A DNA stretch of 64,000 nucleotides, taken from Reichenbachiella sp. 5M10. GTDB lineage: Bacteria; Bacteroidota; Bacteroidia; Cytophagales; Cyclobacteriaceae. Made by a program: the position numbers and the translations under genes. The notes under the pieces are model-generated. The model was not told the DNA's origin. It saw nothing but the letters and a program-made list of their open reading frames with translations, and searched no databases. Within the stretch, counting starts at the first letter, position 1; the number at the start of each line of letters is the position of its first letter. The stretch lies in NCBI RefSeq assembly GCF_002742335.1, contig NZ_MDGR01000007.1, positions 1,616,501-1,680,500 of the forward strand. Reading direction: 5' to 3'. Shown one piece after another: positions 27,343 to 44,097 of the stretch.

Positions 27343-29376
27343 ATGAAGACAGTAGACTTACAGGCAGCAGACAACATTAGAGCATTAGCCGTTTCGATGG
27401 TAGAGAAGGCAAAATCTGGTCACCCGGGAGGGCCCATGGGTGGGGCAGATTTCATGCACATTTTATACTCAGAGTTTTTAAGATTCGATCCGGACAACAT
27501 GAGCTGGCATGCAAGAGACAGGTTCTTCATGGACGCAGGCCATTTGTCTTCACTGATGTATGCGCAGTATAGCCTGTTGGGCAAGTTCTCGATGGAAGAC
27601 CTCTCCAACTTCAGACAGTGGGGATCAGTCACTCCAGGTCATCCAGAAGTAGACGTAGAACGTGCGATAGAAAACACCTCAGGGCCACTTGGTCAAGGAC
27701 ATGCCATGGGAGTAGGAGCGGCGATCGCTGCGAAGTTTCTCCAGGCCAAGTTTGGCAACTGGATGGACCAAAAAATATACGGATTCATATCTGACGGAGG
27801 TATCCAAGAAGAAATCTCTCAAGGGGTAGGACGTATCGCGGGTCACTTGGGATTGAACAACTTCATCATGTTCTTTGATAGCAACGACGTGCAGCTCTCT
27901 ACGATGACTGACGAGGTGACTACTGAGGATACTGCGATGAAATACGAGTCATGGGGATGGAAAGTCGTCACAATCGACGCACACAACCACGACGAAATCA
28001 GAAAAGCACTCAAAGATGCAAACGCTGAGACGGAGAAGCCAGTACTCATCATTGGTAAGACCATCATGGGCAAAGGCTGTGTGACAGCTGAAGGCAAGAT
28101 GTTCGAAGGACACTGCGAACTACACGGTCAGCCAATCGGCGCGACAGGTGCGGATTACGAAAAGACATTGGAGAACCTAGGATCGGATCCTAAGGACCCA
28201 TTCAAAATATACCCTGAGGTAGCTGCACACTATGCACAAGTACTGAAGGATAAAACGGCTGCTGCTCAAGAAGCTTACGCGAAAGAAGAAGCGTGGAGAA
28301 AAGACAATGCAGCACTCGCAGCGAAACTAGATCAGTTCTTGACAGGTAAGATGCCAGAAGGAATTGATTTTAGTGAGATCGTTCAAAAAGAGGGAGTAGC
28401 GTCAAGAGCAGCAGGGTCTGCGGTATTGGCTTACCTCGCGGACAAAGTAGAAAACATGATCGTGTCTTCTGCGGATTTGTCTAATTCAGACAAGACGGAC
28501 GGTTTCTTGAAGAAAACAAGATCCATCCAGAAAAATGATTTTGGTGGCGCATTCTTGCAGTCAGGTGTGGCTGAGCTGTCTATGGCGGCTATCGCCAATG
28601 GGATGGCACTGCACGGTGGTGTGATTCCAGTGGTGGGTACGTTCTTCGTATTCTCTGACTACATGAAGCCCGCGATTAGACTTGGAGCGATCCAAGAGCT
28701 ACCGGTGAAATATGTATGGACACACGATGCGTTTAGAGTAGGAGAGGATGGACCGACTCACCAGCCGATCGAGCAAGAGGCACAGATCAGATTGATGGAG
28801 AAAGTTCAAAACCACAGCCACAAAAATAGCTTCCTTGCACTCAGACCTGCAGATGCTGCAGAGACAACCGTAGCGTGGAAAATGGCTATGGAAAACACAG
28901 ACGTCTCGACAGGTTTGATCCTGTCGAGACAAGGAATCAAAGATCTACCTGCTCAGGGAGCTTCGAGATACGAAGATGCGCTCCAAGCGGAGAAAGGTGG
29001 ATACCTCGTGCAAAAAGTAGAAAACCCAGACGTGGTGTTGATCGCCAATGGTTCGGAAGTAGCGACTTTGTTTGCGGGAGCAGCTTTGCTTGAAGAGAAG
29101 AAAGGATTGAAAATCAACATTGCTTCGATTCCTTCTGAGGGACTATTCAGAAGCCAAGACAAAGCTTATCAGGAATCAGTAATCCCTACAGACAAGCCTA
29201 TCTTCGGTATGACGGCTGGATTGCCTGTCAACTTGGAAGGACTCGCGGGACCAAACGGTAAAGTCTTTGGGTTGGGACATTTCGGATATTCTGCTCCTGC
29301 TGGAGTATTGGATGAGAAATTCGGATTCACTGGCGAAAACGTGTACAACCAAGTGGTTGAATTGTTGGGACTTTAA
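27343..29376 (+). CDS. tkt: Transketolase
   Basis: A full-length, unsplit transketolase of 677 residues. The N-terminal TPP domain has KSGHPGGPMGGADFMHIL, the GPLGQGHAMGVG loop and SDGGIQEEISQG; the pyrimidine-binding domain includes WTHDAFRVGEDGPTHQPIEQ, and a transketolase C-domain closes the chain. It transfers two-carbon units from xylulose-5-phosphate and so links pentose breakdown to glycolysis in the cytoplasm. Transaldolase follows 86 bp downstream, forming a non-oxidative pentose phosphate unit that is preceded by a long structured leader. Confidence 0.96.
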   Translation: MKTVDLQAADNIRALAVSMVEKAKSGHPGGPMGGADFMHILYSEFLRFDPDNMSWHARDRFFMDAGHLSSLMYAQYSLLGKFSMEDLSNFRQWGSVTPGHPEVDVERAIENTSGPLGQGHAMGVGAAIAAKFLQAKFGNWMDQKIYGFISDGGIQEEISQGVGRIAGHLGLNNFIMFFDSNDVQLSTMTDEVTTEDTAMKYESWGWKVVTIDAHNHDEIRKALKDANAETEKPVLIIGKTIMGKGCVTAEGKMFEGHCELHGQPIGATGADYEKTLENLGSDPKDPFKIYPEVAAHYAQVLKDKTAAAQEAYAKEEAWRKDNAALAAKLDQFLTGKMPEGIDFSEIVQKEGVASRAAGSAVLAYLADKVENMIVSSADLSNSDKTDGFLKKTRSIQKNDFGGAFLQSGVAELSMAAIANGMALHGGVIPVVGTFFVFSDYMKPAIRLGAIQELPVKYVWTHDAFRVGEDGPTHQPIEQEAQIRLMEKVQNHSHKNSFLALRPADAAETTVAWKMAMENTDVSTGLILSRQGIKDLPAQGASRYEDALQAEKGGYLVQKVENPDVVLIANGSEVATLFAGAALLEEKKGLKINIASIPSEGLFRSQDKAYQESVIPTDKPIFGMTAGLPVNLEGLAGPNGKVFGLGHFGYSAPAGVLDEKFGFTGENVYNQVVELLGL

Positions 29377-29462
29377 TTCCGATGGTCTTCTTGGTTTGTT
29401 TTTGACGAGCCAAGAAGATCGGATACATAGAATAAAACTTTGACTATAAACAGACAATAGAC

Positions 29463-30119
29463 ATGCAATTTTTCATCGATACCGCCAATCTTGATCACAT
29501 CAAGGAGGCATATGACTTAGGAGTATTAGACGGTGTGACCACCAACCCATCGTTGATGGCCAAAGAAGGCATCACTGGCGAGGAGAACATCAGAGCACAC
29601 TACAAGAAAATCTGTGATATCGTAGATGACAAGGTAAGTGCAGAGGTAATCTCTACCGAATTTGATGCGATGCTCAAAGAAGGATTGGAACTAGCAGCGA
29701 TCGATCCAAAGATCGTCGTGAAAATCCCAATGATCAAAGACGGTATCAAGACCATCAAGGCGTTGAGTGACAAAGGGATCAGAACCAACTGTACGTTGAT
29801 CTTTAGCCCAGGACAAGCAATCCTTGCTGCGAAAGCGGGTGCGAGCTATATCTCTCCATTCATCGGGAGATTGGACGATATCGGGTTTGACGGGATGAAC
29901 CTCATCGAGCAGATCGTGGGTATCTACGATAACTTCGGTTTCGAAACTGAAATCCTAGCGGCATCTGTGCGCAACCCACTACACTTGATCAAGTGTGCTG
30001 AGGTAGGTGCAGACGTAGTGACCTGTCCATTGAGTGCGATCATGGGCTTGTTGAAACACCCATTGACCGACAGTGGATTGGCGACTTTCCTAGCGGATTA
30101 CGCCAAAGGAAACAAGTAA
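29463..30119 (+). CDS. tal: Transaldolase (short FSA/TalC-like type)
   Basis: A 218-residue class I aldolase of the short transaldolase / fructose-6-phosphate aldolase family. The Schiff-base lysine is Lys87 in VVKIPM, and TTNPSLMAKEG and SPFIGRLDD are conserved. Phe133 in SPF, where fructose-6-phosphate aldolases carry Tyr, argues for transaldolase activity. It continues the pentose phosphate step started by the adjacent transketolase and is closed by a strong terminator. Confidence 0.93.
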   Translation: MQFFIDTANLDHIKEAYDLGVLDGVTTNPSLMAKEGITGEENIRAHYKKICDIVDDKVSAEVISTEFDAMLKEGLELAAIDPKIVVKIPMIKDGIKTIKALSDKGIRTNCTLIFSPGQAILAAKAGASYISPFIGRLDDIGFDGMNLIEQIVGIYDNFGFETEILAASVRNPLHLIKCAEVGADVVTCPLSAIMGLLKHPLTDSGLATFLADYAKGNK

Positions 30120-30342: not shown

Positions 30343-31239
30343 ATGTGGGTGATTCTGGGAGTGTTGTCTTTGCTGGCTTTGGGAGTGTATGATCTACTCA
30401 AGAAGGTCTCGCTCAATGACAATGCAGTTTTGCCCGTGTTGTTTTTCTCGACCTTAGCTTCTGCCTTGCTTTTCGTGCCGCCGTTGGTGTTGTCTCATAC
30501 AGTAGAGGGGTTTGAGCAGTACGACAATTTCTATATCCCCTCAGTAGGCCTCAAGGTACATTTGTTAATCCTGATCAAGGCTTTGATCGTCGTGTCATCG
30601 TGGATTCTATCCTTCATGGCACTCAAAAACTTGCCAATCAGCATTGTCTCACCGATTCGTAGTACAGGGCCAGTATGGACATTGCTAGGTGCGATTCTAA
30701 TGTATGGTGAGACACTGACACTCCTGCAGTGGATGGGGATGATTGTTGCCCTCGTTTTCTTTTATTTCTTCTCCATTGCTGGCAACAAGGAGGGCGTCAA
30801 TTTCAAAACCAACAAATGGGTTTGGTTCATTTTTTTAGCGACCATCATTGGGACTTTTAGTACACTGTATGACAAGTACCTCATTGCACATTACAATCGC
30901 CTAGCGATTCAGGCCTATTTCTCTTTCTACCAAGTGCCTATTATGCTCTTGGTCCTGTGTTTTTTTTGGTATCCCAAACGAAAGGAGTTGACTCCTTTTC
31001 AATGGAGAAACACGATTCCGTTGATAGGTATCGTGCTTGTCTTGGGTGATTTTGCTTACTTCTATGCGTTGACCTTTGAGGATTCTCTGGTGTCAATCCT
31101 GTCTTTGCTCAGAAGGAGCAGCGTGATCATCTCATTTGGAGTGGGGGCCATCCTTTTTAAGGAAAAGAATATCCTTTACAAGTCACTGATTCTGTTGGGG
31201 ATCATAGCAGGGATTGTTCTCATCATGTTTGGCAGTTAG
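30343..31239 (+). CDS. EamA-like DMT-family transporter
   Basis: A 298-residue membrane protein with about ten helices in two homologous halves, typical of drug/metabolite transporters (SFMALKNLPISIVSPIRSTGPVWTLLGAI; second half DSLVSILSLLRRSSVI). The substrate is unknown. Its place between the transaldolase terminator and the kinase-regulator gene suggests, without proof, a sugar or sugar-derived substrate. Confidence 0.85.
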   Translation: MWVILGVLSLLALGVYDLLKKVSLNDNAVLPVLFFSTLASALLFVPPLVLSHTVEGFEQYDNFYIPSVGLKVHLLILIKALIVVSSWILSFMALKNLPISIVSPIRSTGPVWTLLGAILMYGETLTLLQWMGMIVALVFFYFFSIAGNKEGVNFKTNKWVWFIFLATIIGTFSTLYDKYLIAHYNRLAIQAYFSFYQVPIMLLVLCFFWYPKRKELTPFQWRNTIPLIGIVLVLGDFAYFYALTFEDSLVSILSLLRRSSVIISFGVGAILFKEKNILYKSLILLGIIAGIVLIMFGS

Positions 31240-31258
31240 TGGGCCCAAAGTTTATAGT

Positions 31259-31290
31259 TCACGAAGTGAAAAGCATCGATGCACTTGTGA
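31259..31290. promoter_or_regulatory. Inverted repeat upstream of the kinase-regulator gene
   Basis: TCACgAAGTG (31259-31268) and CACTTGTGA (31282-31290) are complementary apart from one bulged base, with a GCATCGATGC palindrome between them. The site lies 57 bp before the -7 box of the fusion gene and could be an operator for autoregulation. Confidence 0.35.
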
Positions 31291-31346
31291 TTCCAAAATG
31301 CTGGATGTAAATGTGAAGATTGTTAGGCTAGTCTGCTCAAGTGACG

Positions 31347-31354
31347 TAACTTTG
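31347..31354 (+). promoter_or_regulatory. -7 box (TAACTTTG) of the kinase-regulator gene
   Basis: Perfect TAnnTTTG match 83 bp before the ATG at 31437. A TTG at 31320-31322 is a possible -33 element, with a long 24-bp spacer. Confidence 0.45.
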
Positions 31355-31436
31355 GCGTAGTTAAGGGGTGAATAGAGGCGTTTTCGCTACATGTAGAGCC
31401 TATTCACTCTTAAGGAGCAGATTCACGGAAAGAAGG

Positions 31437-33419
31437 ATGTATTTATTAGGTTACGAAGTAGGCAGTACGACCGTCAAAATTGCACTGATTCGATCAGAGG
31501 ACAACAAAGTCATCGGAGTAGGACAATACCCGGAGCATGACTCGACGATACTGTCTCGTCACAGTGGATGGGCAGAGCAGCATCCTGAGTCTTGGTGGCA
31601 GGATCTCTGTACCGCTACTCGAAATATCCTGTCCCAAAATCATATCAATCCTCGAGAGATCAGCGGGATAGGGATTGCCTATCAGATGCACGGTCTCGTG
31701 CTCATCGACGAAAACAAGAAAGTATTGCGTCCTTCCATCATCTGGAGTGATAGCCGTGCGGTGACGATAGGCAAAAAGGCCTTCAAGGATCTGGGAGAAA
31801 AAGAATGTCTAGAGAATTTCCTCAATTCGCCGGGCAATTTCACCGCATCTAAACTACGCTGGGTTAGAGACAATGAACCAGATATCTATGATCGTATCGA
31901 TAAGATCCTGTTGCCAGGAGACTACATCGCGATGAAATTCACAGGTGAGGTGCAAACCACAATTTCAGGTTTGTCGGAGGCTATACTTTGGGATTTCAAA
32001 AAGAAGAAGACAGCCAAGCAAGTCTTAGACTACTACGACATCAGCGAAGACTTGATTCCCGAGATCGTACCGACTTTTGCGAGGCAAGGAGAGGTGACTG
32101 CCGAGGCGGCAGAGATGAGTGGGTTAGCTGCAGGGATACCGGTGACCTATCGAGCTGGTGATCAGCCCAACAATGCCCTGTCTCTCAACGTGCTCAACCC
32201 CGGAGAGATCGCTGCGACCAGTGCTGAATCAGGGGTGGTCTACGGGATAGTCGATAGACCCAAGTACGACATACGCTCACGTGTCAATCCTTTTGCACAT
32301 GTCAACTACGAAGACAACTACGACCGCATCGGTGTACTGCTGTGCCTCAACGGAGCAGGTACGCAATATGGATGGATGAAAAGCCAGATTGCACTCAGTG
32401 GTCGTCACTACGACGACATGGAGCGCATGGCTTCTACTGTACCGATAGGGTCAGATGAGCTATGTATTTTGCCTTTTGGCAATGGAGCCGAGCGGATGTT
32501 GGACGAAAAAAGCATCAACTCCCACATCATGAATCTGGAGTTTAGCAGACATTCTAGAGGGCATCTCTACCGGGCAGCTTTGGAAGGAGTGGCCTTTTCG
32601 TTCGTTTATGGGGTGAATCTGCTCAAAGAGCTCGGGTTGGAGGTGGATGTGCTTCGTGTGACCAACGACAACATGTTTCAATCTGAGGTGTTTTCGATGA
32701 CAATCGCGACGCTGCTTGATTGTCATATCGAGGTAGTGGAGACTACAGGAGCCATCGGTGCTGCACGTGCTGCGGGTGTCGCCAATGGAGTGTACTCATC
32801 GCTGGAGGATGCTCTGTCTCATGTGACGCCTAGTATCATCCACGAACCACGACTCAATCAGTCGCGTTGCAACCAGGCCTACAACCTTTGGTTGTCTTAC
32901 CTAGACAAGGCACTGTTTGATATGCCTTCCAAGTCCAACAGGCCCGAAGTGCTTCGGGCCAAAAACGATACGTTGAAGGCAACCATTGACGAAAAGAACA
33001 AGGAGCTTGCCGCGCTAGCCATGCAGTTGCACAACAAGGATGAGTTTTTGATGGATATCAAGAATACTCTCCAAGAATTGGGGACGGCACTTTCCACAGA
33101 AGATCAAAAGAAGGCCTTGCAACGGCTCGTCGGTAAGATTGAAAGCAAGACAGATAGTGACAAAGATTGGGAAAGCTTCGAGGATCAGTTCAATCTGCTG
33201 CACTCGGACTTCTTCAAAAAACTCAAGAGCGATTTTCCTAAGCTATCAGTACCCGAAGCGAAACTCTGCATGCTCCTCAAGATGAAGCTATCCACCAAGG
33301 AGATCGCCAATCAACTCAATCTCTCCGTACGTGGTGTAGAGACCCGCCGCTACCGCCTCCGCAAAAAACTGCAAATCAACAAAGAACTGGATCTGGAAGA
33401 GTTTTTGGATAGGGTTTAA
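31437..33419 (+). CDS. Xylulokinase-like (FGGY) domain fused to coiled coil and LuxR-type HTH; putative pentulose-sensing regulator
   Basis: The start is the ATG at 31437, preceded by AAAGAAGG and giving the same MYLLGY N-terminus as XylB. Residues 1-485 align without gaps to the XylB at 47559, keeping MHG 84-86 and the base Asp242 ([10 protein letters not shown]). The nucleotide motifs differ: Glu7 replaces Asp7 in phosphate motif 1, SAE 262-264 replaces GGT in phosphate motif 2, and Thr409 replaces Gly409 in the adenosine motif. Residues about 500-565 are a coiled coil (DEKNKELAALAMQLHNKDEF). Residues about 580-660 are a LuxR/GerE-type DNA-binding domain (LSTKEIANQLNLSVRGVE, then RYRLRKKL), the output module known from Bacteroidota Y_Y_Y regulators. 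No signal peptide or membrane helix. I infer a cytoplasmic one-component sensor of xylulose or a similar ketose; residual kinase activity is not excluded. Confidence 0.9.
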   Translation: MYLLGYEVGSTTVKIALIRSEDNKVIGVGQYPEHDSTILSRHSGWAEQHPESWWQDLCTATRNILSQNHINPREISGIGIAYQMHGLVLIDENKKVLRPSIIWSDSRAVTIGKKAFKDLGEKECLENFLNSPGNFTASKLRWVRDNEPDIYDRIDKILLPGDYIAMKFTGEVQTTISGLSEAILWDFKKKKTAKQVLDYYDISEDLIPEIVPTFARQGEVTAEAAEMSGLAAGIPVTYRAGDQPNNALSLNVLNPGEIAATSAESGVVYGIVDRPKYDIRSRVNPFAHVNYEDNYDRIGVLLCLNGAGTQYGWMKSQIALSGRHYDDMERMASTVPIGSDELCILPFGNGAERMLDEKSINSHIMNLEFSRHSRGHLYRAALEGVAFSFVYGVNLLKELGLEVDVLRVTNDNMFQSEVFSMTIATLLDCHIEVVETTGAIGAARAAGVANGVYSSLEDALSHVTPSIIHEPRLNQSRCNQAYNLWLSYLDKALFDMPSKSNRPEVLRAKNDTLKATIDEKNKELAALAMQLHNKDEFLMDIKNTLQELGTALSTEDQKKALQRLVGKIESKTDSDKDWESFEDQFNLLHSDFFKKLKSDFPKLSVPEAKLCMLLKMKLSTKEIANQLNLSVRGVETRRYRLRKKLQINKELDLEEFLDRV

Positions 33420-33420
33420 T

Positions 33421-33472
33421 CTACTGCCCAGCGAAATCACTATTTGATCAGTTCGCTGGGCAGTAGACCGTA
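33421..33472. terminator. Long hairpin terminator between convergent genes
   Basis: CTACTGCCCAGCGAA (33421-33435) and its perfect complement TTCGCTGGGCAGTAG (33452-33466) with a 16-nt loop, followed by a T-rich stretch on the plus strand. It starts directly after the fusion gene stop and includes the last codons of the AraC gene. Confidence 0.8.
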
Positions 33473-34444
33473 TATTTTTTTGAAGGCAACAGTGAAGTGC
33501 TGTGGGTTCTTGTAACCTACACGATAAGATGCCTCGGTGATGTTGCAGACACGCTCCTCGATGAGGGATTTGGCGGATTTCATCCGTTGTTCGGTGATGT
33601 ACTTGAATAGCGTCGTGCCATGAGTCACCTTGAAACTCTCTTTGAGTTTGGAGGCATTCATTCCTACCAATGCTGCCAAGGACGCAATGGATAGCGGGTC
33701 GTTGAGATGAGTTGAGATGTGCTGCACGACTCGTTCCAGCTTTTCGTGGGTGCTAGGGGATAGCTGGGTAGTAGTGGAGCGAGACGAACGTTGGTCCCAG
33801 GAGGCGAAAATCATCACCAAGAGTTCCAATACCTTGGCTTCCAAAAAAGGCTTTTTGAGCGAGTCGGCATATTGACAGTCGAGGATGTCCTGGATGTGTC
33901 GTTTGAGGACAGGGGTGATTTTCTGACTTCTATTCCAAAACAGGAAAGGTCGCTTGCTCTCAATAGCCGTCCCAAATTCTTTCAGTACCTCCTTGAAGTT
34001 TTGACCAATAGCTTTCTTGATAAAAGCCTTGGTAAACTGTATCTCTAGGGTCTGACGATGGGGTGGGATGAAATGCAAAACACCATTGACTCTGGGGAAA
34101 TAAAACAAATTGAACTGACCAGATTGAATTTCGACAGGCATGCTGTATTCGTCTTGGGGTTCGTAGTGATTGTAGCCTTCGATCTCAAAATGCAGTTTGA
34201 ACAAAGGGAAATCATGAGACACCTCCACCTCATAGGGTGACTTGACGGTGACGTTTCGATTGACCAAAATGATCCCATCTACTTGTACCTCATGCACTTG
34301 TCCCGTCACGCCATTTTGATCAATACTCGTGTTCTCCTCCTTGATGGATTGTGTGGTGAAGTTTTTAGAGTACTGCTTGGTTTGCGTACCACCTTCGAAT
34401 ATCTGGCTTTTGAGAATTGTTTTCATTTCATCTTTTTGCGGCAT
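33440..34444 (-). CDS. AraC-family transcriptional regulator of the siderophore cluster
   Basis: A 334-residue regulator. The last about 100 residues form the paired AraC helix-turn-helix (ASLAALVGMNASKLKESFK; YRVGYKNPQHFTVAFKKIYG). The N-terminal 220 residues resemble the PchR-type sensing domain seen in siderophore regulators. It is divergent from the TonB receptor gene across a 102-bp gap with an inverted repeat. I infer activation of the uptake cluster by iron-siderophore, as in PchR systems; the ligand is not determined. Confidence 0.88.
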   Translation of the reverse strand: MPQKDEMKTILKSQIFEGGTQTKQYSKNFTTQSIKEENTSIDQNGVTGQVHEVQVDGIILVNRNVTVKSPYEVEVSHDFPLFKLHFEIEGYNHYEPQDEYSMPVEIQSGQFNLFYFPRVNGVLHFIPPHRQTLEIQFTKAFIKKAIGQNFKEVLKEFGTAIESKRPFLFWNRSQKITPVLKRHIQDILDCQYADSLKKPFLEAKVLELLVMIFASWDQRSSRSTTTQLSPSTHEKLERVVQHISTHLNDPLSIASLAALVGMNASKLKESFKVTHGTTLFKYITEQRMKSAKSLIEERVCNITEASYRVGYKNPQHFTVAFKKIYGLLPSELIK

Positions 34445-34461
34445 TTAAAAAACCTTTTGCG

Positions 34462-34504
34462 TTGGTGCAAATGATGGCTTCTATACCACATTTGCACAAA
34501 AATA
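34462..34504. promoter_or_regulatory. Inverted repeat operator and minus-strand -7 box between araC-type gene and TonB receptor
   Basis: GTGCAAATGATGG (34465-34477) and CCACATTTGCAC (34486-34497) are complementary except for one bulged base, with 8 bp between. On the minus strand TATTTTTG (34504 to 34497) matches the -7 consensus for the regulator, overlapping the repeat. This fits a shared, autoregulated control region. Confidence 0.5.
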
Positions 34505-34546
34505 CACTATTTAGAACTGGTCTTAATAAATGCAGCTTTTTTTCTC

Positions 34547-36943
34547 TTGAGAATAATCTACTTCCATATTCTATCCTTGTCTCTAGCACTATGCCTGTGC
34601 CTCAGCGCAACACTCGCTATGTCACAGCGACAGGAGACTGGGGGGATTTCTGGTGCAGTATCGTCCTCGGATGGAGAAGCCCTCCCTATGGTGCCTATTC
34701 GGATTCTAGAGACAGGCGTAGGAGTAGTAGCCGATGATCAAGGACATTTTGTGTTTTCAGACTTGCCTTTTGGGGAGTATCGGCTCAGTGTTACCTTCCT
34801 CGGGTTTGAGGATCGCCAAATTACCGTCACACTGGATGACCAACACCCTCACGTATCGCTAAACCTTACCTTGACTCACGATAGCGAAATGCTAGAGGAG
34901 GTGACGATCTCTCACGATGCAGAAAAGGAACAGCAAACCCAAGGGTTTGCGGTAGAGGCTGTGGGAACCAAGCAGTTTCAAGCCCAATCGATCGAAATCA
35001 ATCAAGTATTGGATCAAACTGCGGGGGTCAAGGTACGTCAATCCGGAGGACTGGGCTCTAGAGTCAACTATAGCATGAACGGCCTGAGTGGTCAATCCAT
35101 TCGTTTCTTTATGGATGGGGTGCCCATGGATTATTTTGGGTCGTCCTACTCGATCAATACCATCCCTATTTCGCTCGTAGACCGTGTGGAAGTCTACAAG
35201 GGCGTAGTGCCTGTCGAACTAGGCAATGATGCATTAGGTGGCGCAATCAACCTCGTGACCAAATCCAGTTTCAACGAGTTCGTAGAGGCTTCTTATTCCT
35301 ACGGATCATTCAATACTCATCGAGCAGCGATACAAGGCAGCTGGCGAGCGAAGCAATCCGGCTTGACGATGAAGCTGTCTGCATTCTACAATTACTCGGA
35401 CAACAACTACTACGTATGGGGCGAAGATGTACCTGTCACCGATGTGAATACCGCCAATGTCACCCGTGGGGAGAAAGTCAGGCGTTTTCATGACGGGTAT
35501 GAATCCAAGTCTGTCAAAGCTGACTTTGGCTTTACGCAAAAAAAATGGGCAGATAAGTTACTCCTTGGTGTTCTGTACTCTGAGATGGACAAAGATATCC
35601 AGCACGGTCCTACGATGGAGGTGGTGTTTGGGGAAGCTCGATATCACCAACGTGTGGTGATGCCCAACATGACTTATCAGAAGTTTGATTTCTTAGCCAA
35701 AGGGCTGGATGTGAATTGGTTTGCATCGTACTCGTACCTAGTGCGTGACCGCATCGACACGACAACCAACATGTACAATTGGGATGGAAGTATTCTGGAT
35801 GCAAATTCAGATCGAGGGGAGCAGCTTTGGACGTTGAATACGCTGGATCAGAAAGTCTGGCTCAACCGTCTCAACCTCGTCTATCAGCTCAATCCTCACC
35901 ACAAACTGGGCTACAACTATGTCTTCAGTGACCTGACACGAACAGATAGTGATCCAGTCGTGACACAAAAGACCGACGGCTATTGGGCGCCACAGACGTT
36001 TCGAAGGCACAGCATGGGATGGGTGTTGCAGAGTCAGTTCTTGGAGCAAAGACTCCATACTTCGCTGTTTGTCAAATGGTTTGGCTACCGTGCTGCGATC
36101 AAAACAGCTACCACCGAAAACAGCGTCACCAGTTACCAGACCGAACAAGCCAGTGCATCGGATTGGGGCTATGGGGTGGCGGGTTCGTATCAGCTCAGAC
36201 CTAGCGTGATGTTGAGTCTGTCGGTAGAGCAAGCCTATCGACTACCAGCCGCCAACGAAGTGCTAGGGGACGGTCTCAATGTTGTCAGCACTACTGCGCT
36301 TCGTTCTGAGTCCAGTCTCAATGCCAATTTGGGTTTTAGGGTCACTACTGCGATGGAGCGCAAAAACCGATTCACCTTTTCAGGCAATGTCTTCTATCGG
36401 GATGTCACAGATTTGATCCAGCAGTACTCGTACGATCCTGGAGCCTTTGTCAACATCAATTTTGATCAGGTAAGAATGCAGGGAGTGGATGGCAAAATCA
36501 AATTCGCGCATAGTCATTGGTTGACCGTCAATCAGACGGTGTCCTATTTGAGTCCTATCGTCAAGTCGGATACCGATGAGTTGGGCAACAACAATGTGAC
36601 AAAAAATTCGCGACTAGCCAATACGCCCTTTTTCCAAACCAATACCGAGCTACGAACTCAATTCAAGAATCTGATCCAGGAAGGTGCTGTTACCTTCTTC
36701 TATTGGAGTGTATCGTATGTGGGTGAATTTCATCGTCACTCAGAGATCATAGGTCGGTACAACAAGGACGTGATTCCTGCTCAGTTGGTCAATAGCTGCG
36801 GGATAGGTTATACGTTTCCCAAAGAAAAACTCAGCCTCAGCGTGGACGTGAGCAACCTGTTCGATGAGCAGGTATTCGATAATTATGCGATTCAAAAACC
36901 CGGTAGAGCGGCCTATATCAAAGCCACCTATCGATTATTATAA
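34547..36943 (+). CDS. xusA: TonB-dependent siderophore receptor (XusA-like)
   Basis: A 798-residue outer-membrane receptor, probably starting at TTG 34547 (no in-frame ATG gives a full signal peptide). After the signal (LCLCLSATLAMSQ) comes a carboxypeptidase-regulatory-like domain (about 30-115), a plug domain (about 130-235, GGLGSRVNYSMNGLSGQSIR; VEVYKGVVPVELGNDALGGA) and a 22-strand-type barrel ending in aromatic-rich strands. Followed by a DUF4374 lipoprotein and a PepSY membrane protein, this matches the XusABC xenosiderophore uptake arrangement known from Bacteroides. The cognate siderophore is not identifiable. Confidence 0.88.
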   Translation: MRIIYFHILSLSLALCLCLSATLAMSQRQETGGISGAVSSSDGEALPMVPIRILETGVGVVADDQGHFVFSDLPFGEYRLSVTFLGFEDRQITVTLDDQHPHVSLNLTLTHDSEMLEEVTISHDAEKEQQTQGFAVEAVGTKQFQAQSIEINQVLDQTAGVKVRQSGGLGSRVNYSMNGLSGQSIRFFMDGVPMDYFGSSYSINTIPISLVDRVEVYKGVVPVELGNDALGGAINLVTKSSFNEFVEASYSYGSFNTHRAAIQGSWRAKQSGLTMKLSAFYNYSDNNYYVWGEDVPVTDVNTANVTRGEKVRRFHDGYESKSVKADFGFTQKKWADKLLLGVLYSEMDKDIQHGPTMEVVFGEARYHQRVVMPNMTYQKFDFLAKGLDVNWFASYSYLVRDRIDTTTNMYNWDGSILDANSDRGEQLWTLNTLDQKVWLNRLNLVYQLNPHHKLGYNYVFSDLTRTDSDPVVTQKTDGYWAPQTFRRHSMGWVLQSQFLEQRLHTSLFVKWFGYRAAIKTATTENSVTSYQTEQASASDWGYGVAGSYQLRPSVMLSLSVEQAYRLPAANEVLGDGLNVVSTTALRSESSLNANLGFRVTTAMERKNRFTFSGNVFYRDVTDLIQQYSYDPGAFVNINFDQVRMQGVDGKIKFAHSHWLTVNQTVSYLSPIVKSDTDELGNNNVTKNSRLANTPFFQTNTELRTQFKNLIQEGAVTFFYWSVSYVGEFHRHSEIIGRYNKDVIPAQLVNSCGIGYTFPKEKLSLSVDVSNLFDEQVFDNYAIQKPGRAAYIKATYRLL

Positions 36944-36982
36944 AACCATTTAACATTCAAAATCATACAAATTAAGAAGTAT

Positions 36983-38275
36983 ATGAAACAGATTTTTAAA
37001 ATAGCAATGGCCATGTACATGGCGATGTTCTTGATCGCTTGTAGCGAAGACGATGACTCTAATGAAGATGTCATCGCTGCAGATGGTATCTACAACTTCC
37101 TAGGAACTATCGACGGTGCTTACTACCTAGCAGCCTCCGAAACGCTCACCGAAGGTAGCCTGACTTTTGTCAACAATGGTACGCAGATCGATGCAGACCA
37201 AGCGGCCCGTATCATCGCTTCTGGTGATTACTTGTATTCGTTGGATTACGGGACGGGGTTGTTGTCTCAGTTGCAGCCTACAGCTACAGGGGAGTATGTC
37301 AAGATCAAAGAAATCAACGCAGGGCTGTCAGTCGGGACCAATACGCCACGCTATGCACTAGCAGACGAAAGCACCATCATCGTGATGAACGTGGAGACGA
37401 CTCCCGTGACTGATGATGCAGGTGACGTGACAGACTACATTTGTACACTGAGGTTGTCTTCTGTGGCTATTCCAGAGATGACCATTGGCAATTTGACGGA
37501 GTTTGTGATCCCACAAACAGAGAATGCCAAAAAAGGAGCAACCATTGGGTACCATCCTATGAGAGCGAGTTCTCCGGTGATTTCAGGAGACAAGATCTAT
37601 TTTGGTTTGATGCACACAGATATTTTTGATCCGACTGTACCTCCTCCATTCAGAGCACCTAAGCAGTCTGGTTTAGAGACTTTGGTGTTTGACTACCCAT
37701 CGATGACCAATGGGACAATCACCGAATCGAGTGCTGCGACGGGACACACGGGTGGATACCGCGCACCTGCGATGCATGTGGACGAAAACGGTGACGTATA
37801 CCAAAACAACTGGTTCATGAGTGCCACTGGATTTGATCTATCGAATGGGGACAAAACAGTCATCATGAGGTTGAGAGATGGAGCGTATGATTCGAGCTAC
37901 GAGTTTGACGTGTCGGCAGCTTTAGGGCTGGAAAGCAATGTCGCTGCAGTAGGTTGGTTCTATGTAGGCAATGGGATCGGATACATGCCTATCCAGCTCG
38001 AAGACGAGGGCAACTACTATACAGACAACTCATGGAGTGTAGCTAGAATCGACATCTACAACCAAACGGCTGTCAAGCTTGATGTACCGCTATCTCAGCT
38101 ATTCACCTACGAAAACGGCATCACAGTAGACGACAATTTCTACATGGCTATCAGTCCAACGGGTGGTGATGCAGCTGTTTACGAGTTTGACGCGAGCTCT
38201 GCTGCTGCTGACGCAGTGACTGAGGGGCTTGGCTTGGATGGCAACAACATCCACGTAGAAGGTATCTATCACTAA
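36983..38275 (+). CDS. xusB: DUF4374 surface lipoprotein (XusB-like)
   Basis: A 430-residue lipoprotein (lipobox LIAC at about residue 20, followed by an acidic SEDDDSNEDV stretch of the kind that helps surface export in Bacteroidota). The rest is a beta-propeller of the DUF4374 family. In Bacteroides the homolog binds ferric siderophores at the cell surface. It lies 39 bp after the receptor gene, clearly in one operon. Confidence 0.85.
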   Translation: MKQIFKIAMAMYMAMFLIACSEDDDSNEDVIAADGIYNFLGTIDGAYYLAASETLTEGSLTFVNNGTQIDADQAARIIASGDYLYSLDYGTGLLSQLQPTATGEYVKIKEINAGLSVGTNTPRYALADESTIIVMNVETTPVTDDAGDVTDYICTLRLSSVAIPEMTIGNLTEFVIPQTENAKKGATIGYHPMRASSPVISGDKIYFGLMHTDIFDPTVPPPFRAPKQSGLETLVFDYPSMTNGTITESSAATGHTGGYRAPAMHVDENGDVYQNNWFMSATGFDLSNGDKTVIMRLRDGAYDSSYEFDVSAALGLESNVAAVGWFYVGNGIGYMPIQLEDEGNYYTDNSWSVARIDIYNQTAVKLDVPLSQLFTYENGITVDDNFYMAISPTGGDAAVYEFDASSAAADAVTEGLGLDGNNIHVEGIYH

Positions 38276-38296
38276 TCCAGATCAATCAAAATACGG

Positions 38297-38347
38297 AAAC
38301 AGACCTTGTTGTTATTTTCGACTAGAAAAAAACAACAAGGTCTGTTT
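38297..38347 (+). terminator. Perfect 17-bp hairpin after the DUF4374 gene
   Basis: AAACAGACCTTGTTGTT (38297-38313) and AACAACAAGGTCTGTTT (38331-38347) are exact complements around a 17-nt loop. There is no T run beyond the stem, so it may act as partial terminator or as mRNA 3'-end protector within the cluster. Confidence 0.75.
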
Positions 38348-38368
38348 ACATACAAAACCCAAACAACT

Positions 38369-38965
38369 ATGAAAGTAAATATCCTATCGGTATTCGTGTT
38401 GGCACTCGTGCTGTCGCTGCTTGCGAGCTGTGGTCATCAAGAGGAGCGGTTCAATTATACTTTGGTCAAGTCAAAACTAAGCTTGACAGAGGAGCAAACC
38501 CGTCAGTTTGACCTCATCAAAGATGATTACAGCACCAAAGCCAGAGCGGCCTATGAAGCCAGCAAGCCAGACCGTCAAAAAGTAAAAGAAGCTGTAGGGG
38601 AAGTATTTGCGCAGCAAGACGCAGCGATGCAGGATATCCTATCTCCTGAGCAATTCGATATCTACGTGGCGGAGATGAAAATCGAGCGCGATGGACGCGA
38701 AAAACACAACATGCAATTGATCAAGTCTGAGCTGGCCCTAGACAGTGCCCAAAGCGTACAATATGATCTCGCCAATGAGGCTTTCTACAAGACACTGATT
38801 GACAACCATGACAACTACCATGGCAAGCCCGATGTATACCTACAATACTATCAGGAGCTAGACCTGAGCAGAAGACAAGCCTTTGAGGGATTCATGTCTC
38901 CTGCCCAATACACGCAGTATGTGGAATTGGCGACCGAATACAACATCGGCAAGTCCGAACATTAA
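38369..38965 (+). CDS. Helical lipoprotein inserted in the siderophore cluster
   Basis: 198 residues when started at the ATG at 38369, which begins a lipoprotein signal with lipobox LASC; an upstream TTG start would include part of the hairpin. The mature part is helical and charged, with two similar halves (KLSLTEEQTRQFDLIKDDY and ELALDSAQSVQYDLANEAF) and LSPEQF / MSPAQY motifs that recall Spy/CpxP-type LTxxQ proteins. A role as periplasmic metal or stress-related accessory protein is only a guess. It is not part of the minimal XusABC set. Confidence 0.72.
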   Translation: MKVNILSVFVLALVLSLLASCGHQEERFNYTLVKSKLSLTEEQTRQFDLIKDDYSTKARAAYEASKPDRQKVKEAVGEVFAQQDAAMQDILSPEQFDIYVAEMKIERDGREKHNMQLIKSELALDSAQSVQYDLANEAFYKTLIDNHDNYHGKPDVYLQYYQELDLSRRQAFEGFMSPAQYTQYVELATEYNIGKSEH

Positions 38966-38994
38966 AAGAACCAGGTCCACCTGTTGCAATACAA

Positions 38995-39047
38995 GCCCTA
39001 AGGTTTGGGACGAAAAAGGTGTTCTTTTTCATCCCAAACCTCAGGGC
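38995..39047 (+). terminator. 22-bp near-perfect hairpin before the PepSY gene
   Basis: Segments GCCCT, AGGTTTGGGA and GAAAAAG pair with CTTTTTC, TCCCAAACCT and AGGGC, interrupted by two single mismatches, with a 5-nt loop. Together with the hairpin at 38297 it brackets the helical lipoprotein gene. It lacks a U tail. Confidence 0.7.
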
Positions 39048-39092
39048 CATTAACCCAATACCGATAAAACGTTTTGCCCATCTGGGAAACAA

Positions 39093-40286
39093 ATGATTCA
39101 AAAAAGAAATCCACTACTGAGGAAACGAAGAAAAAAGGAGAGCGTTTTCAAGTACAGCATGGCACTACTGCACCTGTGGTTGGGGCTTTTGTCTTCTGTC
39201 GTGGTTTTTATCGTTTGTCTATCGGGCAGTATCTACGCATTCAAACAACAGATCGAAGATTGGATCAATAGCGAGTCTCTCCATGTTGCCCATCCGTATG
39301 AGGACCGGGTCATCAGCAGCGATACATTACTGCTCAGGTTCGAGAAGCGCTTTGGTCGTCCGACGACTATGTGGGTCTATCCTGAGTCAGACCGAACTGT
39401 CCTCATCTCCTCTTTGAGTCGAGAGGGCGCAGGAGTATCAGCCTATTTCGATCCCTATACGGGCAATCTCGTGGGAGTGAAAAACCAAAACGCATCGGCT
39501 TTCTTTGCTTGGGTATTGGATCTGCACCGCTTCTTATTGGCAGGGGATGTTGGCAAGTTCGTCAACGGTACAGCGTTACTGATGATGGTGCTCATGTTGG
39601 TGTCTGGCTTGGTGCTTTGGATACCCAAAAACCTCAAACAACTCAAGAAAAGCCTGCTGATCAAGTGGCGTGCAAAGCTACTGCGTGTCAACTATGATCT
39701 TCACAAGGTATTAGGATTCTATGCCGCGCTATTGCTGTTGTTCATGGCGATTACAGGGCTGTATGTATCTTTCACATGGGTGAAAAATGCAGTGATAGTG
39801 GGGTTGGGAGGTGATTCTATCATTATCTCTGAGAGCAACCTGGCTATCAAAACACAACTGGCGCAATCTTTTGAATCCGCGATGGGGTCACTCGTCACCG
39901 AACAGCAATCCGCAGGGGACTCAGCAGCCTCGCTGTCTCAGGTGCTCACCCAAGCCCAGAGCCACTTCTCCAGTACCGGTCTACTCACTATCAACCTCCC
40001 CAACGAAAACATCAACAACTATACCCTCACACACCTGAGTGCGGAGGGGGTATTGGGCTTTTACACACCTGATGTGTTAGAATTTTCCCCAAGTGGGAAC
40101 TTGAGGAAGCTTGTCCATTTTAGCGATCTGCCTCTGCATGAGCAGTTCAAGGCCATCGCCAAACCCCTCCACACGGGAGAGATCATGGGACTACCCAGTA
40201 TCATATTCTACTTCATAGCCAGTTTGATTGGGTGCTCACTACCTGTCACAGGCTTCATCATTTGGTGGAAAAGAGTAGTGAGTTGA
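39093..40286 (+). CDS. xusC: PepSY-associated membrane protein (XusC-like, putative siderophore reductase)
   Basis: A 397-residue inner-membrane protein with four predicted helices: about 28-50, 140-165, 200-225 and 365-390, and a large periplasmic PepSY region between the first two. Motifs LHRFLL and DLHKVLGFYAAL place histidines in helices, as in iron-uptake reductase-type PepSY proteins. In Xus-like systems this component is proposed to free iron by reduction. It closes the cluster after two hairpin-bearing gaps. Confidence 0.85.
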   Translation: MIQKRNPLLRKRRKKESVFKYSMALLHLWLGLLSSVVVFIVCLSGSIYAFKQQIEDWINSESLHVAHPYEDRVISSDTLLLRFEKRFGRPTTMWVYPESDRTVLISSLSREGAGVSAYFDPYTGNLVGVKNQNASAFFAWVLDLHRFLLAGDVGKFVNGTALLMMVLMLVSGLVLWIPKNLKQLKKSLLIKWRAKLLRVNYDLHKVLGFYAALLLLFMAITGLYVSFTWVKNAVIVGLGGDSIIISESNLAIKTQLAQSFESAMGSLVTEQQSAGDSAASLSQVLTQAQSHFSSTGLLTINLPNENINNYTLTHLSAEGVLGFYTPDVLEFSPSGNLRKLVHFSDLPLHEQFKAIAKPLHTGEIMGLPSIIFYFIASLIGCSLPVTGFIIWWKRVVS

Positions 40287-40418
40287 TGCGCGCAATTCTC
40301 CACCAATAGTATGTGGCAGGGATACTTGAGAAAACTAGAGGTAAAGTACTGTAAGATGACTTTTATTTATTCCATTCTTTGTACAAATTGCGGCCTTTAC
40401 ACAACGTAACAATACGAC

Positions 40419-40970
40419 ATGGAGGTAAGAGGAATAATGCTGAGAGGGATCGATGATTTTGTATCGAGCAAGCATGAAGGAAAATACGAGCAGTGGGTGT
40501 CTAAGTTGCCTCAACAAACATCTGAGCTTTTGGGTAACGTGTCCAATTCGTCATGGTACAATATCGAAGATGCACTACTCAAACCACTCGAAGCGTTGTG
40601 CAACTTGGCATATTCAGATCCCCTGAGAGGTTCGTGGGAGGTAGGTCGATACAGTGCTGAGACAGGCTTGACAGGGATATACAAAGTCTTCGTGATGGTG
40701 AGTACACCGAGTTTTATTCTCAAGCGTGCCCCCAGAATACTGACGACTTTTTACAACCCTAGCCAACTGGAGATCAAGGAGAGTTCGAACAACGGCATCT
40801 TGGTGAGATGTACCAAACTGCCCGTCAATAGTGAGTTGATCGAGCACCGTATCGCAGGATGGATCGAGCGAGCAGGCGAGATCTGTGGCTGTGTCAATAT
40901 GAAAGTCGAAATTCTAAGCTCGATGGCCAAAGGTGACGCCGTCTTTGATCTAAAAGCAAGCTGGGATTGA
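40419..40970 (+). CDS. 183-residue hypothetical protein, paralog B
   Basis: Paralog of the product at 21651-22202, same length and collinear motifs (GRYSAETGLTGIYKVFVMVS; TTFYNP; GWIERAGEICGCV). No signal peptide or membrane helix. Like paralog A, it is a monocistronic gene with its own terminator. A small-molecule or gas sensor of the DUF2378/V4R type is possible but unproven. Confidence 0.7.
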   Translation: MEVRGIMLRGIDDFVSSKHEGKYEQWVSKLPQQTSELLGNVSNSSWYNIEDALLKPLEALCNLAYSDPLRGSWEVGRYSAETGLTGIYKVFVMVSTPSFILKRAPRILTTFYNPSQLEIKESSNNGILVRCTKLPVNSELIEHRIAGWIERAGEICGCVNMKVEILSSMAKGDAVFDLKASWD

Positions 40971-40984
40971 TCACCCTGTACAAA

Positions 40985-41020
40985 AAAGAGGTTTCAAGTC
41001 CACGGACTCAAAACCTCTTT
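40985..41020. terminator. Bidirectional terminator
   Basis: AAAGAGGTTT (40985-40994) pairs with AAACCTCTTT (41011-41020); an inner AGTCC/GGACT pair extends the stem. It separates convergent genes and has A and T runs on both sides. Confidence 0.88.
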
Positions 41021-41032
41021 GCGTTACATTTC

Positions 41033-41752
41033 TTATACTGCTTTTGCAATCGATGAATGCGGAAAGACCAAGCCTCTTTTTTGTAGCAGAGAGACGATCA
41101 TGTCTGTGATTTCGTCTACAGTGGCTGTCTCCATATTGAAGGTCAAATCAAAGATGCTGTTGTCTATCTCGTGCTCCACGAGATGCTCCGCCCAGGCTTT
41201 TCTGTCTTTGTCCATACGCTGGATGAGCTCTTTTGCCTCGGTAGCGTTGATTTTCTTGACTTTCGAAACGATCGCTATGCGATGCTCCAGCGGAGCAGTC
41301 AGCTTGATATGTAGACTGTTCTTCATGGATCGTGTTACACCTATTCCACCACGCCCGACGATGATGACGTTGCCTTTTTGGGCATAAGTTGTGATGATTT
41401 CTTTGACCTTATTGATGATCACTTGATCAGGCAATCGGTAGTGATGAGTAAACCCCGCTAGCAATTCATTGACAATGGCCGAATGATGCAAGCGTACCCG
41501 GTGATCTACATCTATGGCTTTGATGCCTAGTTCTTGGGCAGATTCCTCTAGGATTTCTTTGTCGATGTATTGCCAGGGATGAGGCTTGAGTCCTTCACCT
41601 TGGAGCTGGTTCAGCTTGGTGATGAGTGACTGGATGACAGCCTCTTCGTCACAACCAAAGTTTCTAGAGAGGGTGATGGTTGGACCCTCTACGGATTGAA
41701 AAGCTTGCATACGGTCACGCTCTTCTAAGTAGTTCTTCAAATTTATTTTCAT
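41033..41752 (-). CDS. Cytidylate kinase-like family protein
   Basis: A 239-residue P-loop-type protein of the cytidylate kinase-like family (distinct from CMP kinase). ITLSRNFGCDEEAVIQSL at the N-terminus replaces the standard Walker A, and NVIIVGRGG and LTAPLEHRIAIV are family motifs. The function of the family is unclear. It is a single gene facing a terminator shared with paralog B. Confidence 0.82.
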   Translation of the reverse strand: MKINLKNYLEERDRMQAFQSVEGPTITLSRNFGCDEEAVIQSLITKLNQLQGEGLKPHPWQYIDKEILEESAQELGIKAIDVDHRVRLHHSAIVNELLAGFTHHYRLPDQVIINKVKEIITTYAQKGNVIIVGRGGIGVTRSMKNSLHIKLTAPLEHRIAIVSKVKKINATEAKELIQRMDKDRKAWAEHLVEHEIDNSIFDLTFNMETATVDEITDMIVSLLQKRGLVFPHSSIAKAV

Positions 41753-42106
41753 GATGTATTGTTGTTAACTCAAAAAAAGAATCAACCAGCAGTACGTGCA
41801 GGTACAGCTGCATGGCTCGTTTTTCAAAATGATTAATATTCCGTTTGGGTTTAGGTATCTAAGTTGGGTTGAGTGGTGTACTCAGTGGATCTCTACCAAA
41901 CCTTACAAGATGTGTAGGGGTCATCGGGTACGCTACGCTTCGCACGATTCTATATACGAATTGGGAACAAAAAAGTGTTGTTTTCGAGGGGGAAATATAA
42001 AGAGGGTTGGTTGTGCGGGGTCTCATTGTCGCACCGACCTGTGGTAGGGGGGTAGTGAGACAAGTCGCCTTGAGTGGTCTTGATGGGCATGCCTCGCGTC
42101 ACTTGT
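41753..42106. other. Intergenic stretch, no gene seen
   Basis: These 354 bp form the 5' flank of the cytidylate kinase-like gene. I see no coding potential, RNA or strong hairpin; only a weak GTGCG/CGCAC pair near 42012-42035. Confidence 0.5.
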
Positions 42107-42472
42107 TCAACTGCTGCGCAAGATTTTTTCCATTTTTCTGCCCTTGGCCAGTTCGTCCACCAACTTATCTAGGTACCGCACCTTCTGTGTCAATGGATTT
42201 TCGATTTCTTCGATGCGGTATCCACAGATCATGCCCGTGATGAGATATGCATTGGGATGGAGAGTGGCTTGCTGAAAAAAGGTTTCAAATGTCACCTTCT
42301 CTTGTATCAGTTCATTTATTTGATGGGGACGATAGCCTGTCAGCCATTCGATGACTTGATCGAGTTCTTCTTTGGTTCTGCCTTTCTTCTCCACTTTGGT
42401 GAGATAATGTGGGTAGACAGAGGCAAAGGTCATGGAAGCCATGCGTTGATTGTGCGTGTCGGTTGTGTTCAT
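42107..42472 (-). CDS. DUF2200 family protein
   Basis: A 121-residue soluble protein with the characteristic DUF2200 opening (MTFASVYPHYLTKVEKKGRT) and VIEWLTGYRPHQINELI. Widespread in bacteria, function unknown; no informative neighbour. Confidence 0.85.
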   Translation of the reverse strand: MNTTDTHNQRMASMTFASVYPHYLTKVEKKGRTKEELDQVIEWLTGYRPHQINELIQEKVTFETFFQQATLHPNAYLITGMICGYRIEEIENPLTQKVRYLDKLVDELAKGRKMEKILRSS

Positions 42473-42576
42473 GATCAGTGCGTTTTTATTCTCTCCTTGT
42501 CGATGGGTTGTCGCCAGGTTCTATTTCATATGTTGTAGCCCAAGGCTGCACGGTCTGCGCTAGGTTGACCATGGAT

Positions 42577-42987
42577 CTAAAAAGTTAGGACAGCTTTACC
42601 AGATTCGCAAATGACACTGGAAGGTGCTGGTGTGATGGCACAGTCAGAGGCGATACTCCACTGGCGATTGTATGCAGCAGTAGCGGTCGTATAGGATGCT
42701 ACTTTTAGCAAAAACTCGGAGACATCGATGCTGTGGGAGTAGGCGATATAACTACTCGGACCACCACATGCTTTTGAGCCGAGGGGAGTGAAGCTCCATT
42801 GATCTGCATCCTGGCAAGTCACACTTTCGGCTAGTTCGGTGATTGCCGCCAGTTGTTCTTCCAGGTAAGCTTGCTGTTCTTCTTGAGAATCAGGTAAGCG
42901 ATTTTCTTTTGTTACGTCTTCTGTGCTACATGCGCTCAATAGTCCGGTAGCCAACAGAATGACGAATAGTTTTGGATGTATTTTCAT
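42577..42987 (-). CDS. Hypothetical lipoprotein
   Basis: 136 residues from the ATG at 42987, with a lipoprotein signal (lipobox LSAC). The mature part has a helical acidic N-terminal half and several cysteines (SVTCQD, SKACGG, SDCAITP, SVICESG) that could form two disulfides. I do not recognise the family. Confidence 0.7.
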   Translation of the reverse strand: MKIHPKLFVILLATGLLSACSTEDVTKENRLPDSQEEQQAYLEEQLAAITELAESVTCQDADQWSFTPLGSKACGGPSSYIAYSHSIDVSEFLLKVASYTTATAAYNRQWSIASDCAITPAPSSVICESGKAVLTF

Positions 42988-43094
42988 GTGCATCAACTTT
43001 TATTGGTTTGTAGCTAAAGACACCAGGAGTGAGGAAATGGTTGGGAAGTAAAGGGAAGTATGTTGATAGTGAGATGCCTTGTCACATGAAAGTC

Positions 43095-43562
43095 CTATAC
43101 GGTAAGCTGACTCGTCTTTTGGTCCAACACGGTCAGTAGCTTCAAAAGTGTAGCTCTGAACTCTTTGATTTCATGTGGTGTCGTGGCATGATGCTGTAAG
43201 TTGTCCATCAATTGACCTGGGATGCAAGTGGCCTCCTTTTTTTGCGCTGCACCATGGGGTGTTAGAGAAATAATCACCGTTCGTTCGTCTGCTTCAGAGC
43301 GTTTTCTAGTGATCAAGTTCTTTTGTTCCAACCTCTTGAGTAGAGGTGTGAGCGTATTGGATTCTAGGTACAAGAGTTTACTGATCGCACTGACGCTTTG
43401 GTGGTCCTGCTGCCAAAGAACCAGCAATACGAGATACTGTGGATAGGTCACATCTAGGGTTTTGAGCAAGGGACCATAGAGCTTAGTCGTCAGTCGCGAT
43501 GCAGCATACAATGGAAAGCAGAGTTGGTTTTCCAACCACAATACATCATTCTTATTTTCCAT
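43095..43562 (-). CDS. ohrR: OhrR-type MarR-family peroxide-sensing repressor
   Basis: 155 residues from the ATG at 43562. LENQLCFPLYAASR places the redox-sensing Cys at position 15, as in Bacillus subtilis OhrR; a second Cys at 113 allows a two-cysteine mechanism. The winged HTH (SKLLYLESNTLTPLLKRLEQ; RKRSEADERTVIISLT) is typical. It follows the glutathione peroxidase gene by one base, so it probably controls that operon, and a matching operator lies upstream of gpx. Confidence 0.92.
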   Translation of the reverse strand: MENKNDVLWLENQLCFPLYAASRLTTKLYGPLLKTLDVTYPQYLVLLVLWQQDHQSVSAISKLLYLESNTLTPLLKRLEQKNLITRKRSEADERTVIISLTPHGAAQKKEATCIPGQLMDNLQHHATTPHEIKEFRATLLKLLTVLDQKTSQLTV

Positions 43563-43563
43563 G

Positions 43564-44046: not shown

Positions 44047-44068
44047 GGGGTAAATGTTTATTGTTTGA

Positions 44069-44097
44069 ACGATTAAATCGTGTACGATGCAATTGTA
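44069..44097. promoter_or_regulatory. OhrR-like operator upstream of gpx-ohrR
   Basis: ACGATTAAATCG, TGTACGATG and CAATTGTA run together over 29 bp. By memory they match the Bacillus subtilis ohrA operator (AATTAAATTGTATACAATT repeat) at about 23 of 29 positions, with the central ATCGT-gt-ACGAT palindrome. The site lies just upstream of the gpx start, as expected for autorepression. Confidence 0.6.

Follow-up and report, generated by a model that had tools for sequence, protein, structure and literature searches.

What is a LuxR-type DNA-binding domain doing at the end of a xylulokinase? In the window analysed here, a 64,000-nucleotide stretch of the Reichenbachiella sp. 5M10 genome, one gene appears to encode both. 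A preliminary description had read it as a one-component, soluble regulator of pentose metabolism in which an FGGY kinase serves as the sensor.

Architecture and distribution of the fusion protein

The gene and its parts are the following.

31437-33419, + strand: FGGY-LuxR fusion gene, 660 aa, a single open reading frame
31437-32906, + strand: xylulokinase-like FGGY domain, residues 1-490 (Pfam, NCBIfam, PDB and Foldseek matches)
32943-33083, + strand: predicted long linker helix, residues 503-549 (AlphaFold2, pLDDT about 64-75)
33207-33416, + strand: NarL/LuxR-type HTH, residues 591-660 (Pfam GerE, EsrB/SsrB profile match, AlphaFold2 pLDDT 74-85)

The frame runs uninterrupted from ATG 31437 to the stop at 33419. 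The mechanical open reading frame begins at GTG 31368; the start is set at ATG 31437, and relatives open at the methionine of MYLLGY. In Pfam, FGGY_N matches residues 2-245 (E 5e-53) and FGGY_C residues 275-449 (E 2e-9). The NCBIfam XylB model spans residues 4-466 (2e-86), with 290 bits against an equivalog cut-off of 380. GerE matches residues 618-650 (E 8e-5) with 22.6 bits, slightly below the cut-off of 23.5, and a match to Sigma70_r4_2 likewise falls slightly short. ROK, Y_Y_Y and Nudix-like domains are absent from the protein in the Pfam search (ROK at E ≤ 0.01). A profile built from 14 fusion tails finds NarL-type EsrB (5e-5) and SsrB (0.002) as its sole matches in the PDB. The HTH flank had been likened to the output part of Y_Y_Y/LuxR regulators, and residues 487-659 indeed share 38% identity with another protein encoded in this genome, one with Y_Y_Y and a sub-cut-off GerE match.

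The AlphaFold2 model, computed from a 68-sequence alignment, has a mean pLDDT of 86.1 and supersedes a poor earlier model from 17 sequences (pLDDT 68.7). It shows a xylulokinase fold with pLDDT of 77-98 in the kinase blocks, the helix 503-549 and HTH helices at residues 591-659 of 660, with a gap of pLDDT below 50 at residues 573-585. Foldseek gives target-normalised TM scores of 0.89 with xylulose kinase 3ifr and 0.88 with E. coli XylB 2itm (0.88-0.90 including 5vm1). The kinase begins at residue 2 and the HTH lies C-terminal, behind the sensor domain. Reading frame, Pfam, NCBIfam and Foldseek thus confirm what had been read from the letters, a predicted single chain in which a xylulokinase-fold FGGY kinase is followed by a long helix and then by an HTH of NarL/LuxR type.

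Full-length fusions occur in at least 17 of 390 genomes sampled from the family. The order sample (341 genomes) holds three, the window's own and two already in the family set, and the phylum sample (296 genomes) holds the window's own only. The class sample (395 genomes) adds that of G872, a genome outside the family, and 13 genomes of G872's family add that of G1053. A scan of genome contigs for fusion-type motifs returned 18 stretches, 12 of them with a fusion, including three new ones in Saprospiraceae MAGs. In total at least 22 genomes carry the fusion, and the concern raised earlier, that no other genome might have it, falls away. The window genome (4.6 Mb) belongs to the same genus as G007, whose orthologue shares 95% identity with the window fusion. 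At least six of the eight genomes of this genus have the fusion, while the other two show no match at E ≤ 1e-60 among the matches listed. A standalone XylB-like match is also present in at least 20 of the 22 fusion genomes, and is partial in G312 and G1056.

The 22 fusions group with the kinase of G307 in a single clade (support 99) of a FastTree phylogeny built from 69 kinase domains, and the standalone XylB-like proteins fall outside it. The tree includes as controls 26 kinases that read more than 400 aa from the match start. The fusion of G1056 is cut by the contig end and is omitted from the residue counts below. In G307, a Roseivirga MAG, the fusion-type kinase stops at 509 aa (L075:8600-9140). 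Beyond the stop, tblastn detects remnants of both linker and C-terminus, but the HTH core is gone. The locus shows synteny with that of the intact fusion in G312. From these remnants, G307 is read as a former fusion that has lost its HTH.

Neighbouring genes and a tandem operator-like motif

The genes and sites of the window that bear on the function of the fusion are listed below.

27343-30119, + strand: transketolase and fructose-6-phosphate aldolase/transaldolase genes
31342-31359, + strand: two-copy operator-like site TGACGTA-N4-TGGCGTA, starting 95 bp 5' of the fusion start codon, 24.0 bits
47414-47452, + strand: array of four half-sites before xylB, with steps of 11, 10 and 11 bp
47559-49043, + strand: standalone xylulokinase xylB, 54% identical to the fusion kinase domain
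49060-50403, + strand: xylose isomerase xylA, named from sequence and place
50454-51932, + strand: sugar MFS transporter, with a blast-cluster relative that is Pfam Sugar_tr

The preliminary description had suggested looking for pentose genes beside other fusions. Homologues of xylB or xylA lie within 16.5 kb of the fusion in 14 of 22 neighbourhoods, nine of these within 1.2 kb, and the neighbourhood of one more genome, G872, holds GH3, GH10 and SusC/D genes. Those of G002 and G009 have a SusC gene only, and those of G001, G007, G014, G312 and G1056 (a 3.2-kb contig) have none of the gene types tested. Pfam families among the neighbours include GH43 beta-xylosidase, GH10, GH3, GH26, a sodium:solute symporter and a sugar MFS transporter. 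GH26 and GH43 occur near xylB at the G065, G273 and G100 loci. Loci for beta-1,3-xylan resemble these three; the part of the source paper available to us names several regulator families and no FGGY-LuxR protein (PMC12125979). Of the loci compared, only those of G001 and G004 also have the EamA-type gene that precedes the fusion, and Rfam has no match in 31000-50500. Adjoining the fusion, window positions 33440-38275 encode an AraC-type regulator, a TonB-dependent receptor and a DUF4374 protein, which may make up an uptake locus that has a regulator of its own.

Upstream regions contain direct repeats of TGACGTA in 11-bp steps, a pair at fusion genes and as many as four at xylB. For the window site, 0 of 1.18 million shuffled positions reach 17 bits, in shuffles that, like those used below, preserve base composition only. 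The window sites at 11122-11139 (15.2 bits) and 57021-57038 (16.1 bits) are close to the null level. Of the 21 fusion genes, 16 have a two-copy site with at most two mismatches in the 300 bp upstream, a count that is partly circular because the consensus was read by eye from the same promoters. Such a site also precedes 13 of 18 standalone xylB genes in fusion genomes (the other five promoters have three or more mismatches) and 0 of 66 in genomes without the fusion. These gene sets are without G307, G016, G1056 and G312b; the G016 locus re-enters as control L016. The controls exclude L036, L048, L051 and L055 (contig edges), and the 66 include at least three duplicate-locus pairs (L121/L132, L122/L131 and L123/L144). 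With an array score that takes half-site steps of about 11 or 22 bp, a score of at least 5 is reached by 14 of 21 fusion genes and, in fusion genomes, by 15 of 18 xylB genes, but by 0 of 66 controls and at most 0.5% of shuffles.

A held-out matrix, built from fusion promoters only, gives a similar picture. With a threshold of 16 bits, 13 of 18 fusion genomes have a site within 1.5 kb of xylB, against none of 68 controls and none of 68 shuffled controls; a threshold of 14 bits leaves the first two counts unchanged and brings in 4 shuffled controls. Masking hid the region upstream of xylB in L070 and L071, which were counted as misses (the L070 site has 19.8 bits by the other matrix). Genome-wide, 17 family fusion genomes have 36 matches with at most one mismatch, 14 at the fusion, 11 in the xylB intergenic region, one before a fusion-adjacent susC and 10 elsewhere (six in G065). 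Of the 12 perfect matches, 10 belong to the fusion or to xylB. In the 11 fusion-less genomes there are three matches, none perfect. The backward pattern is about as frequent, with 22 matches in the 17 fusion genomes and 17 in the 11 fusion-less ones, so total numbers are near chance and only the placement of the motif carries evidence. In G065, five non-xyl matches (G065:C1:85118, 4364954, 5442854, 5444664 and 6479130) share the longer word ACGTACCAATGACGTA and look like a repeated element rather than operators.

In G001, where about 208 kb separate the two genes, and in G002, G007, G009 and G014, xylB is remote from the fusion or sits on a separate contig and yet keeps the site, which suggests control in trans. 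In some genomes arrays also face GH43, MFS or susC genes. No clear two-copy site lies within 300 bp upstream of five of the 21 fusions (G006, G872, G1053, G1057 and G1058). Of these, G006 carries a 20.8-bit variant at its start codon; in G872 a perfect site follows the fusion gene, between it and susC, and in G1053 a variant stands before xylB. The Saprospiraceae have no strong site; G1058 has a weak one before susC (15.8 bits). In G273, a strong motif (L072:8461-8478, 22.3 bits) precedes a PhyH-type dioxygenase gene adjoining the fusion, whose blast cluster has members in four loci.

The preliminary description had also proposed control of both xyl and tkt genes. The xyl half of this proposal is supported by the predicted tandem motif common to fusion and xylB promoters, even unlinked ones. 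The tkt half is dropped, as no motif of at least 15 bits precedes the adjacent transketolase/transaldolase genes.

It may be asked whether these arrays are owned by another xylose regulator, with the fusion merely accompanying the same gene sets. Protein and motif are linked by co-occurrence alone and some fusion promoters are without a site, both of which fit such a regulator. However, the motif stands directly before most fusion genes and, in those genomes, also marks xylB genes unlinked to the fusion, and near-identical kinases of fusion-less genomes, for example G211 and G169 (the G169 kinase lies outside the tree), are without it. The other regulator would also need the patchy distribution of the fusion. 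We regard this alternative as unlikely. The TGACGTA arrays are likely the operator of the fusion, as predicted from their placement.

Kinase active site and evolutionary constraint

Two phosphate motifs of the kinase domain are marked in the window.

31455-31457, + strand: codon of residue 7 (phosphate motif 1), Glu in the fusion, Asp in 47 of 47 non-fusion kinases
32220-32234, + strand: residues 262-266, SAESG (phosphate motif 2), with GT at 263-264 in 47 of 47 non-fusion kinases

The alignment compares 21 fusions with 47 other kinases, G307 among the latter. Residues Q83, M84, H85, W103, D105, R107, D242 and Q243 are kept in all 21 fusions, and the catalytic Asp D242 (D233 in E. coli) and the substrate-site residues are also present in all 47 others. 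The phosphate motifs differ from this pattern. In five fusions (the window, G001, G004, G006 and G007) D7 is replaced by E or Q and G263-T264 by AE, changes that none of the 47 other kinases shows. At residue 262 all 21 fusions carry S or C, and 46 of the 47 others, all but G307, carry G or A. Kept substrate residues together with changed phosphate motifs are the pattern expected of a kinase-derived sensor. The window fusion is probably a pseudokinase sensor, with catalysis left to the standalone XylB.

A different view is that the fusion is bifunctional throughout, the window included, a working xylulokinase with DNA binding set by substrate turnover. D7 and T264 are intact in 16 of 21 fusions, as expected of working enzymes. 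In the Saprospiraceae MAGs G1057 and G1058 the fusion sits between GH3 and xylA, in the position expected of xylB in a xylan operon, and there is no second match at E ≤ 1e-100; in G307 the HTH-less fusion-type kinase is the sole match at E ≤ 1e-60 among the matches listed. Against this, the window fusion and four relatives carry E or Q at 7 and AE at 263-264, unlike all 47 others, and the window genome has its standalone XylB. In the portion of the SePSK paper available, mutation of D8, T11 or D221 reduces activity (PMC4880283); D8 and D221 are equated with residues 7 and 242 of the fusion by motif, not by alignment, and on this matching SePSK needs the equivalent Asp and Thr. A bifunctional protein in every lineage is therefore held to be very unlikely. 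The earlier claim of a kinase domain acting as the sensor stands on the kept substrate residues and the altered phosphate motifs of five species, but a role as sensor only may hold for this lineage alone, since the motifs are mostly intact elsewhere.

The C-terminal part shows a strong signature of constraint. Between the window genome (G000) and G007, the only pair that is clearly unsaturated, dN/dS of the kinase part is 0.017, and in the HTH dN is about 0 at a dS of 0.93. The 14 fusion tails have 21 invariant columns, mostly within the last 40 of 163. Judged by these substitutions, the HTH is the most constrained part of the fusion. The HTH could instead serve some purpose without DNA binding, leaving the protein a kinase paralogue only, and the GerE and Sigma70_r4_2 matches slightly under their cut-offs would agree with that; given this constraint on the HTH, such a reading is highly improbable. 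An artefact, whether a frameshift, chance read-through or a false join in assembly, had no evidence in its favour and is practically negligible: a run-on, sequencing error or lone fusion is ruled out because the same fusion recurs in at least 21 other genomes from several assemblies, as one clade under strong constraint. As a separate observation, the window xylB and that of G007 (L080:8653-10137) differ by a dS of only 0.08, and their fusion genes by about 1.1; a recent exchange of the xyl operon from one species to another, or codon constraint on it, may account for this.

Proposed mechanism and relation to known regulators

We place the probability at about 80% that the fusion is a soluble, cytoplasmic, xylulose-sensing one-component regulator of xylose and xylan genes and of itself. 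The proposal of such a regulator with an FGGY kinase as sensor gains support from the occurrence in at least 22 genomes, the shared motif and the kept substrate residues, all of it comparative sequence evidence. In this mechanism D-xylulose made by XylA would bind in the kinase cleft and close it. The closure would be relayed through the linker helix to HTH dimers or oligomers, which would align along the half-sites of an array on one face of the DNA. The array-bound fusion would then activate the xylB-xylA-transporter genes and the xylan genes. Activation is suggested because the arrays mostly begin 120-180 bp before xylB. The two-copy site before the fusion gene would provide feedback on the fusion itself, perhaps repression, because 13 of the 16 genomes that have a clear site have it starting 20-39 bp 5' of the start codon (the window and two close relatives have it at 95-149 bp). 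In 10 of 21 fusion promoters an exact copy of the promoter consensus TAnnTTTG overlaps or directly adjoins the site, which is no more than suggestive of self-repression because the motif itself supplies part of the word. In the window genome the kinase domain, probably dead, would sense and XylB would do the catalysis.

The closest known counterparts are regulators of the ROK family (XylR of Firmicutes, NagC and Mlc), which are likewise sugar kinase relatives turned sugar-responsive regulators and in which the HTH is N-terminal. The fusion differs from them in its FGGY kinase, its C-terminal NarL/LuxR-type HTH and its predicted operator of direct repeats at 11 bp in place of inverted repeats. 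What the fusion has in common with ROK is the regulatory principle, not the kinase family, the HTH, the order of the domains or the predicted operator. The ROK family includes both sugar kinases and repressors, according to an excerpt of PMC2580772. Bacteroidota Y_Y_Y/LuxR regulators share the output part, as in the same-genome protein matched over 173 residues, whereas the fusion has no Y_Y_Y or propeller and uses a cytoplasmic kinase domain as the sensor. XylB has the fold and the substrate-site residues in common with the fusion, but the fusion has an extra helix and HTH and, in the window species, changed phosphate motifs. The Bacteroides XylR is an NrtR-type one-component xylose regulator whose gene is clustered with xylose genes, as stated in the accessible parts of PMC3878776 and PMC4666351. 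It resembles the fusion as a one-component xylose regulator of Bacteroidota with an enzyme-like sensor domain, and differs in its Nudix-like sensor and in having another DNA-binding domain.

The preliminary description had known of no FGGY-LuxR regulator class, and we found none described in a literature search that covered open-licence PMC papers, a scope that makes the absence weak. A paper on the FGGY family is restricted to two-domain proteins in the part available (PMC3245297), and the term 'LuxR' is absent from the available part of a review of hemicellulase regulation (PMC10766802).

The history of the fusion can be sketched tentatively, at somewhat less than even odds. A xylulokinase would have gained the LuxR part once, and its descendants would now be an enzyme and regulator in the place of xylB in a xylan operon of Saprospiraceae, a dedicated sensor with a broken phosphate site in Reichenbachiella, which keeps a separate xylB, and, by loss of the HTH, a plain kinase again in one Roseivirga lineage. 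In this tentative reading the Glu that replaces the phosphate-loop Thr may mimic bound phosphate, letting xylulose alone close the cleft. If the regulator reading is true, a second kinase family besides ROK has been converted to a bacterial regulator, with apparent intermediates still living, and genes annotated as xylulokinase can be regulators. The predicted operator is open to immediate testing. The fusion is a candidate answer to the question of how these marine Bacteroidota sense xylose during xylan use.
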